From: Phycisphaeraceae bacterium
Lineage (GTDB): Bacteria > Planctomycetota > Phycisphaerae > Phycisphaerales > SM1A02
Length of the DNA: 64,000 nt
Direction of reading: 5' to 3'
NCBI GenBank assembly: GCA_019636755.1
Contig: JAHBWZ010000006.1
Span: forward strand, 124,001-188,000
Positions 56,499-61,282 of this stretch are shown one piece after another. The notes under the pieces were generated by a model. The model searched no databases, was not told where the DNA came from, and was given only the letters and a program-made list of their open reading frames with translations. The position numbers and the translations under genes are program-made. Numbering within the stretch: the stretch's first letter is position 1; each line of letters begins with the position of its first letter.

Positions 56499-57959
56499 TC
56501 AGTTCCGGATACGGGCCCCGAACGGATCGCACCACGTCCGCTCAGGCCGGGACTCGTGCGAGGTCGCCGGGCCGGCAGCCAGGTGTACCCGACGTACGAC
56601 GACCTGGTAGACGTGTTCCTGGAACCATGCATCCGGAACCGGGAGGCGTATGTCACCCGGCGCGCGGCCGTGGCGCCACGCGACGGCCGCGCTGCCGCCA
56701 TGCACCTGAACGTGCCAGCGGCTCGGCGCCTCATCGGTCACGTCGACCGCCGTGACCAGCGCGGCGGCGGTCGGTCCTGCCTGCCGCGCCGACAGTCGCT
56801 CGGCCTTCGTCAGCAGGAGCGCGCTGACGCCGTACTCCGTCACAGGCGCCCCATGGTCCGCGGACTGATCAGGCGGCACGGGATCCGGCAGTGATCCCGC
56901 CGGCACCCCGATCCAGACCGCCTCGCCCGCCCGAAGCGAACGCAGTGCGACGCTCCGCAGGCTCTCGATCGACTGCACCTCGTGGACGGCGCGAGCGCCG
57001 CCGACGACACCGCAGAGATCCGGGCAGGTGAACACGGTCCCTTGCGCAGCGTCGGCCCGCGGATCATGCACCAGGGAGACGTACGCCTCACGATCGAACG
57101 GCACGAAGCGCCGCAGGAAGTCGACTGGTGAGAGCCCCGCAGCGCGATGAAGATCGCCGCCCCTGTCCCGCCACTGCCAGTCGAACCGGTCCGGCAGGGC
57201 GCCGAGCCCGCCCGCCAGAAGCCGGGCGACGGACTGCAGAATCCGGGATCGCGCTGCGCGGGCCGCTTCCACGGGCGCGCCCGCCGCACGAAGCCCCCGA
57301 AGATCAAGGGCGCCGCGTCGCAGGTACATCTCAAGTGTCCGGTGAAGACGATCCACGCATGATCCGGATGGCGCGGGCGACATCATGCATGCAGGAACAC
57401 ATCCGTGCCGGCCGACGATCTCTGCGGCAATGTGCCACTGACCGGTTCGCGGCACCGGCGTTTCGAACTGTGCCACGATGCGCGGGTCATCCATCGGATC
57501 CAGTGCCGTCCTGAGCATGCTGGTCAGGAAGCAGTTCGCCCGCTCCATCCATTCCCAGAAGAGAAAGTGGGACCGGCTCGGGTCGATGTCGAAGCCGCCG
57601 CCATCCGCCCACGCGATCCGTCGGAGCATCTCCAGCATCGGATCGGCCCAGCAGCCTGGGCGCCGATGCCCGCGCGACGCCGACGGCTCCGCGCCCGCAT
57701 CCCACGGCGGCACCGGCACCTCGATCTGCCACACCGGTGGGCCGGCAGCGCTGCCGACCGGGCGTCCGAGCGCACCGGAGTCACCGCCGCAGGCAGCGAG
57801 ACCGGGCGCGCTCACGGGAGTGACTGCCTGAACCTCGCTCCCCGGACCGCCGAACAGGACTTCGACAATGGCCGGGGCCAATTCGTCCGCACGAGCGGCC
57901 GTCCGCGTGGAGGATCCCGGAGTTTCGCGATGCGGTGTTGCAGAGCTGATCGGAGTCAT
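56499..57959 (-). CDS. Bleomycin hydrolase/aminopeptidase C homologue, catalytically degenerate
   Basis: From residue about 115 on, the 486-residue product follows PepC/bleomycin hydrolase along its length: FLFWEWMERANCFLTSML, DPRIVAQFETPVPRTGQWHI, FVPFDREAYVSLVHDPRADA, LCGVVGGARAVHEVQSIESL and DAWFQEHVYQVVV. The active-site Cys is still suggested by RRPGCWADPMLEMLRRIA (normally QxSGRCW). The catalytic His (normally THAM before the VDV strand) is replaced in GPTAAALVTAVDV. The Asn of ENSWG is replaced in RWHVQVHGG. So it is probably an inactive relative of a C1B peptidase. The start has GGAGG six bases upstream, and the first 90 residues are unrelated and low complexity. It is convergent with ubiA. 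Confidence 0.8.
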   Translation of the reverse strand: MTPISSATPHRETPGSSTRTAARADELAPAIVEVLFGGPGSEVQAVTPVSAPGLAACGGDSGALGRPVGSAAGPPVWQIEVPVPPWDAGAEPSASRGHRRPGCWADPMLEMLRRIAWADGGGFDIDPSRSHFLFWEWMERANCFLTSMLRTALDPMDDPRIVAQFETPVPRTGQWHIAAEIVGRHGCVPACMMSPAPSGSCVDRLHRTLEMYLRRGALDLRGLRAAGAPVEAARAARSRILQSVARLLAGGLGALPDRFDWQWRDRGGDLHRAAGLSPVDFLRRFVPFDREAYVSLVHDPRADAAQGTVFTCPDLCGVVGGARAVHEVQSIESLRSVALRSLRAGEAVWIGVPAGSLPDPVPPDQSADHGAPVTEYGVSALLLTKAERLSARQAGPTAAALVTAVDVTDEAPSRWHVQVHGGSAAVAWRHGRAPGDIRLPVPDAWFQEHVYQVVVRRVHLAAGPATSHESRPERTWCDPFGARIRN

Positions 57960-58095: not shown

Positions 58096-59985
58096 TTACT
58101 TCTCGTCACGGACCTCGTACTCGGCATCGATGACGTCGCCGCCACCCCCACCATCCGCCGGCTTGCTGCCGGCCGGCGCCTTCGCCGCCTTCTCATATGC
58201 CGCCTTGCCGAGTTCGGCGGCCGCCTCGTTGAGCTGACGAAGGGCACGCTCGATCGCCTGGCGGTCATCGCCCTTGACCTTCTCCTCGAGATTCGAGATC
58301 GCGGACTCGATCGCGGACCTGACATCCGGGCTCACGTCGGCACCGTGCTCCTCAAGCGCGCGTCGCGTGCCGTACATGACCTGCTCCGCCTGGTTCTTCT
58401 GGTCCACGAGTTCCCGGCGGGTCCTGTCCGCCACGGCGTTCTCGTCGGCCTCCCGCTTCATCCGGTCGATCTCCTCCTTGGGAAGACCGCCGGAGTTCGT
58501 GATCCTGATATCGGCGCTCTTGCCCGTGGTCTTCTCGGTCGCAGTCACCTGCAGGATGCCGTTGGCATCGATGGCAAACTCGACCTCGATCTGCGGCATG
58601 CCGCGATGGGCAGGTGGAATCCCGGTCAGGTCGAACCGACCCAGTTCCCGGTTGTCGGCTGCAAACTCGCGCTCACCCTGGAGGACCCGGATCGTCACCG
58701 AGGTCTGGTTGTCGGCTGCGGTGGAGAAGACTTCCTTCCGTGATGTCGGAATCGTCGTGTTCCGCTCGATGAGCCGGGTCATCACGCCGCCCTGTGTCTC
58801 CACGCCGAGCGAGAGCGGCGTCACATCAAGCAGGAGAACGTCCTTCACCTCGCCCTGCAGCACGCCGCCCTGGATCGCCGCGCCGATCGCCACAACCTCA
58901 TCCGGGTTGATGGACTTGTCGAGATTGTCCGTCCTGAAGAGCTCCTTGGCGATCTGCTGGACACGCGGAATCCGGGTCGAGCCGCCGACCATGACGACCT
59001 CTCCGATACGGGAGGGGTCCACCTTGGCGTCAGCAAGCGCCTTGAGACACGGCTCGCGCAGCCGCTCAAGCAGCGGTGCCGCGATCTGCTCGAACCTGGC
59101 GCGGGTGAGTGTGTGCTGGAGGTGCTTGGGACCGGACTGATCCGCCGTGATGAACGGCAGGTTGATCGAGGTCTCCATCTGCTGCGAGAGTTCACACTTG
59201 GCCTTCTCCGCGGCCTCCTTCAGTCGCTGGAGTGCCATTGCATCGTTGCGGATGTCGATGCCTTCCTTGCGACGGAAGTCCTCCGCGACGTGGTCGATGA
59301 TGACCTGGTCGAAGTCATCACCGCCGAGGTGGCCGTCGCCGTTCGTGGCGAGCACTTCAAAGACGCCGTCACCAACGTCAAGGATCGAGATGTCGAACGT
59401 GCCGCCACCGAGATCGAAGACCGCGATTCTTGCGTTGACCTTCTTGTCCAGTCCGTAGGCGAGCGCTGCGGCGGTCGGCTCGTTGATGATCCGCTCGACC
59501 TTCAGTCCCGCGATCTCCCCGGCATCCTTGGTCGCCTGGCGCTGCGAGTCGTTGAAGTACGCCGGAACGGTGATGACCGCGCGGTCGACCTTCTCCCCGA
59601 GGTAGTCCTCGGCAGTCTTCTTCAGTTCCTGGAGGATCATGGCCGAGACCTCCTGCGGCGTGTACTGCTTGCCGCGGACCTCGACCTTGACGAACTCATC
59701 GCCCTCGCCGACGACGGTGTACGGGACGATCTTTTCCTCGCTCAGGACCTCGTCGTGACGGCGGCCCATGAATCGCTTGATGGAATAGACGGTGTTCTTC
59801 GGGTTGGTCACCTGCTGGTGACGTGCCGGCTGCCCGACCAGGCGATCGGCCTTTTCCGTGAACGCGACCACCGATGGTGTCGTCCGGTTCCCGGTCGAGT
59901 TGATCAGCACCTTGGGCTGACCACCCTCCATCACGGCAACGACTGAGTTCGTGGTCCCGAGGTCGATTCCGATGATCTTCGACAT
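58096..59985 (-). CDS. dnaK: Chaperone protein DnaK (Hsp70)
   Basis: DnaK is the ATP-driven Hsp70 chaperone of the cytoplasm. The 629-residue protein has all signatures: [20 protein letters not shown] at the start, [37 protein letters not shown] in the ATPase domain (to about residue 385), and the substrate domain with [20 protein letters not shown]. The C-terminal lid ends in a Gly-rich linker and a EYEVRDEK tail. It stands alone; grpE and dnaJ are not adjacent. A sigma-54 type promoter lies upstream, and no CIRCE element is seen. Confidence 0.98.
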
Positions 59986-60040
59986 CGCAGAGGCTCTCCA
60001 GCGCGCCGACCGGAATGGCCGGGCACGAACCCGCTTCTCC

Positions 60041-60055
60041 GCAATGTGCGTGCCA
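60041..60055 (-). promoter_or_regulatory. Sigma-54 (RpoN) promoter in front of dnaK
   Basis: On the minus strand TGGCACGCACATTGC (60055-60041) matches the -24/-12 consensus TGGCACG-N4-TTGC exactly, with GG and GC ten bases apart. Transcription would start near 60030, leaving a dnaK leader of about 45 bases. The position after TTGC is G rather than A/T. No sigma-70 pair of comparable quality is visible in the 203-base gap. Confidence 0.7.
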
Positions 60056-60188
60056 AATCAGGGCTGCCGGAACCGCACCCGTGATGACGCGCTGATCTCG
60101 AGAGAACGATGCCCGGGACCTGCGTTGCGCGACACCACCAACCGCTTCCCTGCCAGATTGGCGGACGCGGGGGGCATCGCCGGATCGC

Positions 60189-61058
60189 TCACTCCACCCG
60201 CCGCCGCGGATCCGGAGGGCGTGGCGCTTCCCGCTCCGGAGAGCCGCTCAGCACGCGTTCTTCTCCGTCGCCCTCAACGATCAGGACCGCATCCGGGCTT
60301 TCGGCGCTGGTCCGCGGCGTCGAGTCGCGTGGTCCCGACGGCGCGGCGATGGCTGCGCCGACGCGGCGCGTCGTCCGGCCCCACCGATGCCGGTCCCGGG
60401 CCTCAGCACGGTCACCGAACGCCTTCAGGGACGCCGGCAGCCGGCTCAGTGCCTGTTCCCACCGGGCCTCCAGGTCCGTCATACGGATGTCGTCCTCGCT
60501 GCCGGAGACACCGTCCGGTCCCCATGACAGCAGGTCAAAGGGGAGTCGCTCGTTCCCGGCCCTGTGCTCCAGGACGTAGGCGTTGCCCCAGGGATCGAGC
60601 CGGGTCGCGGCGTCGATCGAGAGGCCAGCGAGGTCGGGCAACCCGCCCTCCGTGCCCCGGCGATCGCTCTCACCCACGATCGCGTCGGCAATGTTGTACA
60701 TGTCGGCCGTGATCGTGACGAGGGGTGTTTCTGCGGTCACCAGCGCGAACATCGCGAGAACCGCCAGGCCTGCGAGACTGAACGCCAGGGCAAGAACAGC
60801 CCCGAGCATGAGCGCGCCCCAGACGAGGACGCCGATCAACCCGATGAGAACCCCCAGAATGGCGAAGAGCCGGGGTGGGCGCCCAAGGGCCGCCATCGAA
60901 AGGATCAGGCCGAGGAGCGCGAGAACGCCCGTCGGGACGAAGAGCCCGACGACCGCCAGAAGGAACCCGGCGACCGCAAGGCCGTTGTGCTGAGGCACGG
61001 GCATCATGACGACCGGCATCGATTGGACGGGTTGAACTGGCTGCATGGCGATGCTCAT
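60189..61058 (-). CDS. Membrane protein with GspG-like C-terminal domain
   Basis: The 289-residue product (ATG at 61058; longer readings possible) starts with a Gln/Pro/Met-rich segment. Three or four hydrophobic helices follow (AVAGFLLAVVGLFVPTGVLA, LFAILGVLIGLIGVLVWGAL, LGAVLALAFSLAGLAVLAMF), resembling DUF4190-type proteins. A soluble part carries a motif of type II secretion major pseudopilins: RLDPWGNAYVLEHRAGNE and FDLLSWGPDGVSGSEDDI. There is no pilin-type N-terminal methylation site, so this is a GspG-like fold on a multispanning anchor. The C-terminal 70 residues are Arg/Pro/Ser/Glu-rich. It is upstream of dnaK on the same strand but separated by 203 bases and the sigma-54 promoter. 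Confidence 0.7.
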   Translation of the reverse strand: MSIAMQPVQPVQSMPVVMMPVPQHNGLAVAGFLLAVVGLFVPTGVLALLGLILSMAALGRPPRLFAILGVLIGLIGVLVWGALMLGAVLALAFSLAGLAVLAMFALVTAETPLVTITADMYNIADAIVGESDRRGTEGGLPDLAGLSIDAATRLDPWGNAYVLEHRAGNERLPFDLLSWGPDGVSGSEDDIRMTDLEARWEQALSRLPASLKAFGDRAEARDRHRWGRTTRRVGAAIAAPSGPRDSTPRTSAESPDAVLIVEGDGEERVLSGSPEREAPRPPDPRRRVE

Positions 61059-61282
61059 TCCGAGAGCCGGCGGCGCGCTTTCAAGGGCGGGGGCACGGCC
61101 CCATGAGTTCCTGCGTCTGAGAGTCGGCTGCACGGCCTCACCGGTTCAGTCAGCCGCGCCTTACGCGGGCTGCCTGCGTGTCCGGGAACTCGCAGCGGAC
61201 CGCGGCCGCTGCTCGCGTTCCCGGGCGCCCCACGACGCCCCTCAGCGGGACAGGGCTGCACCGAGGCGCCGTCCTTCCGGCG

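Follow-up and report, generated by a model that had tools for sequence, protein, structure and literature searches.

The dnaK locus and its predicted promoter

The window, i.e., the whole stretch of 64 kb of DNA that was analyzed, carries dnaK on the reverse strand (58096..59985), encoding a protein of 629 aa with an HSP70 domain (Pfam PF00012, E 5e-257). The ATG start codon of dnaK lies at 59985 and is preceded by a 5′ regulatory gap of 203 bp (59986..60188, as delimited by the open reading frames), which would hold the enhancer, the promoter and the 5′ leader. The gene located 5′ of dnaK (60189-61133, reverse strand) encodes a protein of 314 aa that matches T2SSG weakly (PF08334, E 1e-5). 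A gene for a bleomycin hydrolase-like protein of the Peptidase_C1_2 family (PF03051, E 3e-55) follows 3′ of dnaK on the same strand (56499-57959) and is possibly co-transcribed with it.

The forward strand reads gcaatgtgcgtgcca at 60041-60055, and the coding strand therefore reads TGGCACGCACATTGC. A sequence-only reading of this locus had described these 15 bases as the -24/-12 elements of a sigma-54 promoter, and both the coordinates and the sequence confirmed it: the spacing from GG to GC is 10 bases, the TGGCAY-N5-TTGC context is present and the motif is placed 56-70 bases 5′ of dnaK. The transcription start is predicted 12 bases downstream of the GC element, near 60029. The dnaK site is the single exact match to TGGCAC-N5-TTGC in the window. 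The genome encodes the sigma factor itself, as the sequence-only reading had asked to be checked: rpoN is present (Sigma54_DBD, E 4e-54) and, in open reading frames read by eye, apparently adjoins recR, a YbaB-type gene and dnaX.

In bacteria, induction of chaperone genes usually proceeds either via sigma-32, an alternative factor of the sigma-70 family, or by relief of HrcA repression at the CIRCE element. Control of dnaK by CIRCE, HrcA and RpoH was searched for, and none of the three was found. No CIRCE element occurred anywhere in the genome of the window when up to three mismatches were allowed, and HrcA was detected in 0 of 61 genomes, whereas the same search was positive in 7 of 14 control genomes. 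The RpoH model TIGR02392 gave only general matches of the sigma-70 family in this genome (best 152 bits against a cut-off of 323 bits); a diverged heat-shock sigma factor is possible, since this model describes the proteobacterial RpoH. A simple consensus scan of positions 59950-60250 revealed no sigma-70-like pair, with the reservation that the consensus may not fit the housekeeping promoters of planctomycetes, and an Rfam search of the 64 kb window gave zero matches. Thus, the earlier remark that neither CIRCE nor a good sigma-70 pair accompanies dnaK holds for the scanned gap and, in the case of CIRCE, for the whole genome, and HrcA is missing as well.

In order to assess conservation, DnaK was searched for in 60 relatives, 36 of the same family and 24 of the same order, and was found in all 61 genomes. 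Regions of 300 bp upstream of dnaK from 59 relatives and from the genome of the window itself (60 regions) were then compared. With a score of 9 out of 10.5 as the minimum, 56 of the 60 regions contained a sigma-54 site, and with a minimum of 8 the number was 58, whereas the reverse strand, used as a control at the stricter score, yielded 0 of 60 and shuffling predicted 0.36. Among the exceptions, G002 retains the palindrome described below together with a slightly altered box (TTGGCACggggcTTGTA), and G023 alone shows neither promoter nor palindrome. This conservation decides against a chance match of the 15-base motif, an explanation to which four further one-mismatch versions in the window (5 found versus 2.9 expected in shuffles) might have lent some weight; as 56-58 of 60 genomes keep the site before dnaK and the reverse-strand control is empty at the stricter score, this explanation was rejected as next to impossible. 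A wider sample comprised 80 more dnaK upstream regions, two of them from other families of the class and the remainder from elsewhere in the phylum. Here, 38 of 80 regions contained a sigma-54 site (reverse strand, 1) and 39 of 80 a palindrome with a score of at least 10, i.e., outside the order roughly every second genome sampled has no sigma-54 site before dnaK. Because both elements recur at this frequency, the arrangement is widespread and probably old, having been lost or replaced in some lineages. Within the order it is the rule, judged from these upstream regions, and not a peculiarity of the window locus. The motif is thus kept in close as well as in distant relatives, and the claim that sigma-54 controls dnaK is well supported by this conservation and by the presence of rpoN.

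A conserved palindrome upstream of the promoter

When the upstream sequences were aligned with the promoter as anchor, conservation became apparent in a second element, the palindrome CTGCCA-N3-TGGCAG. In the window it reads CCGCCAATCTGGCAG (consensus CTGCCANNNTGGCAG) and occupies 60150..60164 on the reverse strand, 94 bp above the -24 box and 24 bp past the stop codon (at 60189) of the T2SSG-like gene. The palindrome was found upstream of the dnaK promoter in 55 of 60 genomes with at least 10 of 12 positions matching, and in 98% of cases A or T occupies its central base, a position left out of the scoring. Its distance to the -24 box is variable and clusters at about 65, 75, 85, 96, 107, and 116 bp. 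Phase concentration of these distances peaks at a period of 10.5 bp (R = 0.78, n = 54), a value reached by 0 of 5000 jittered sets; taking distinct distances alone, given that related sequences are not independent, R was 0.68. Such periodicity is expected of an activator that acts by DNA looping, and the palindrome is accordingly interpretable as a candidate enhancer (upstream activator site). The five genomes without a recognizable palindrome at dnaK include G005 and G017, both of which encode a single strong enhancer-binding protein (see below), so the element may be dispensable or diverged there.

Repressors also use palindromes, and some genomes keep the promoter without the palindrome, as might be seen if the element were the operator of a repressor or a site for another factor rather than a sigma-54 enhancer. 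A repressor site would, however, normally overlap the promoter, whereas this palindrome almost always sits 65-116 bp above the -24 box with a 10.5-bp phasing, which is the geometry of sigma-54 enhancers. The operator explanation is therefore regarded as highly improbable.

Another objection to the enhancer-dependent reading concerns the weight of the promoter itself. Since dnaK is normally required for growth, a basal promoter that the scan did not recognize may also exist. The sigma-54 site might also be functional but minor, the main dnaK promoter being of a sigma-70-family or ECF type that a simple consensus scan misses. Chaperones usually have basal expression, planctomycete housekeeping promoters may deviate from the scanned consensus, and in Chlamydia tandem sigma-66 and sigma-54 promoters precede hrcA-grpE-dnaK (PMC8762339). 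Against this, the scan gave no sigma-70-like pair, and in the upstream alignment conservation is most conspicuous at the sigma-54 boxes and at the palindrome. Such a minor role for the sigma-54 site is considered unlikely, although it is the most probable of the competing explanations.

In the interval between palindrome and promoter, some relatives (e.g., G019, G020, G030, and G031) have a hairpin that resembles a terminator, including its T run, immediately 5′ of the -24 box. This hairpin is missing from the window itself. It occurs in 13 of 58 relatives, more often than the 4 expected in shuffles, and was rejected as a core part of the arrangement since it is restricted to this minority.

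Shared chaperone targets and the candidate activator

The 4.11 Mb genome contains 12 copies of the palindrome pattern GCCANNNTGGCAG. In four cases a same-strand sigma-54 site follows 50-94 bp downstream, and behind each of these pairs stand chaperone genes: dnaK in the window, an operon with groES (Cpn10) and groEL (Cpn60) on contig C14, clpB (Clp_N) on contig C16 and hsp20 on contig C18. Two of the four boxes have a first base other than that of TGGCAY (CGGCAC before the groE operon and GGGCAC before clpB). Neither the palindrome nor its sharing by groESL, clpB and hsp20 figured in the sequence-only reading. A blind search of 397 genomes of the class for palindrome plus promoter returned 47 matches, compared with 0 for a reversed control pattern. 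Most of the 30 pair loci that were fetched precede dnaK, and others precede groEL, clpB or hsp20.

Six strong Sigma54_activat proteins (L095-L100) are encoded in the genome. One of them, L099 (G000:C1:464072-465451), combines a receiver domain (PF00072), the sigma-54 interaction domain (Sigma54_activat, PF00158) and a Fis-type helix-turn-helix (HTH_8, PF02954), all above cut-off. It contains the GAFTGA motif, and the receiver Asp, Thr, and Lys residues are conserved in the 16 orthologs aligned. Orthologs of L099 were found in 60 of 61 genomes (one is a fragment at a contig edge) and scored far above the paralogs; the sole genome without an ortholog is 72% complete. Seven relatives (G001, G005, G017, G018, G024, G027, and G035) encode a single strong enhancer-binding protein, which in each case is the L099 ortholog (about 69-76% identity over nearly the full length). 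As five of these seven genomes also have the palindrome before dnaK, the L099 ortholog is the only evident candidate in those five. This co-occurrence suggests that L099 is the likely activator at the palindrome.

With six strong proteins of this type in the genome, the promoter and the palindrome could be real and yet be served by one of the others (L095-L098 or L100). L095, tried first as the palindrome binder, was set aside; it is the other activator that was tested by protein search, and it is patchy among relatives, in contrast to L099 with its orthologs in 60 of 61 genomes. Moreover, in the five palindrome-bearing genomes mentioned above the L099 ortholog is the only strong enhancer-binding protein. 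A different activator is thus held to be quite improbable, and L099 is kept as the preferred candidate. A motif-based scan around the 16 readable ortholog genes revealed no kinase-like open reading frame near the regulator, and L099 was for this reason treated as an orphan response regulator. Autoregulation of the regulator gene found no support, since neither a sigma-54 site nor a convincing palindrome precedes it. A search of genome contigs for the regulator gave one close named match (Phycisphaerales bacterium, 66% identity), the rest being mostly distant NtrC-type proteins; the assignment of the window to Phycisphaerales or its vicinity is based on that one match.

Proposed mechanism and relation to known heat-shock systems

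At all sigma-54 promoters the polymerase requires an AAA+ activator. In the proposed mechanism, sigma-54 RNA polymerase would transcribe dnaK from the -24/-12 site at 60055-60041, and an activator would most likely bind CTGCCA-N3-TGGCAG at 60150-60164 and contact the polymerase via DNA looping. The best candidate for this activator is the orphan NtrC-type response regulator L099, which may in turn be activated through phosphorylation by an unlinked kinase. An external signal, as put forward in the sequence-only reading, would be conjectural: L099 does have a receiver domain, but the scan for a neighbouring kinase gene was negative. Because the same enhancer-promoter pair precedes groESL, clpB and hsp20, the regulator would co-activate the chaperone set, presumably upon heat or protein misfolding, and would thereby fill the role played elsewhere by sigma-32 or HrcA/CIRCE. 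A probability of nearly four in five is assigned to this reading as a whole, namely sigma-54 transcription of dnaK, an activator at the palindrome that is most likely L099, and joint switching of the chaperones. Accepting it, the main chaperone genes, dnaK included, appear in this planctomycete and in the majority of related genomes to be under an ATP-dependent, enhancer-driven sigma-54 switch.

Comparison with known systems shows both similarities and differences. Like other NtrC-type regulators, L099 has a receiver, an AAA+ sigma-54 interaction domain and a Fis-type helix-turn-helix, and the palindrome is phased 65-116 bp above the -24 box; the present targets are, however, chaperone genes, and no kinase gene was found beside L099. 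The sigma-32 (RpoH) and HrcA/CIRCE systems act on the same targets (dnaK, groESL, clpB and small heat-shock proteins), but here HrcA was found in 0 of 61 genomes and, in this genome, neither CIRCE nor an RpoH above cut-off was detected. The chlamydial arrangement also has a sigma-54 promoter feeding dnaK, combined with HrcA control and a sigma-66 promoter, whereas HrcA and CIRCE were not found here.

Enrichment of sigma-54 promoters has already been predicted for chaperone COGs in Planctomycetota (PMC12316311; PLoS One 2025). That analysis was made at COG level with promoter matrices and, in the passages searched, names no enhancer or activator for these genes and does not remark on the absence of HrcA/CIRCE. 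Neither an enhancer nor an activator was named in any paper found by our literature search, which mostly did not reach subscription journals, and the main text of the Desulfovibrio sigma-54 regulome paper contains no similar palindrome. Beyond the chaperone enrichment predicted before, novelty appears to lie in the enhancer, in the regulator and in the lack of the usual control factors. In a microarray study of Rhodopirellula baltica, heat induced ClpB, GroEL, DnaJ, GrpE, Hsp20, and DnaK while the known heat-shock sigma genes were unregulated, and the authors suggested a “significantly different response cascade” (PMC2754498). A sigma-54 switch could explain this chaperone induction without regulation of heat-shock sigma factors.

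Sigma-54 appears to have taken the usual heat-shock role in the whole order and in much of the phylum. A more far-reaching proposal, to which we give even odds, is that in Phycisphaerae, and probably in ancestral Planctomycetota, the cytosolic heat shock response is governed by sigma-54 together with a single orphan NtrC-type regulator acting at CTGCCANNNTGGCAG in place of sigma-32/HrcA, perhaps with a brake in the form of a degenerate receiver that opens the groESL operon, and with some CBASS/Pycsar operons wired in. The sigma-54 switch comes with a named candidate regulator and a named DNA site, and it poses the question how a receiver of the phosphorylation type senses protein misfolding.

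The groESL operon on contig C14 (L090) opens with a gene for a stand-alone receiver-like protein, whose Response_reg match (E 2e-5) falls below the Pfam cut-off. Three of the 30 fetched loci precede a protein that resembles it, so that in three relatives (L250, L251, and L252) a similar receiver-like protein stands directly below the enhancer-promoter pair. This receiver-like protein is a possible feedback partner of the regulator. Three other loci among the 30 precede proteins matching PADLOC models for CBASS or Pycsar. In genomes G377, G037, and G407 the enhancer-promoter pair lies before defence-type genes, which encode a CBASS cyclase (L264, PADLOC E 1e-125), a Pycsar-cyclase-like protein (L267, PycC E 7e-10) and a CBASS/Pycsar membrane effector (L270, E 1e-35), respectively. 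Their position suggests that anti-phage defence operons may be tied to the chaperone switch in these genomes.
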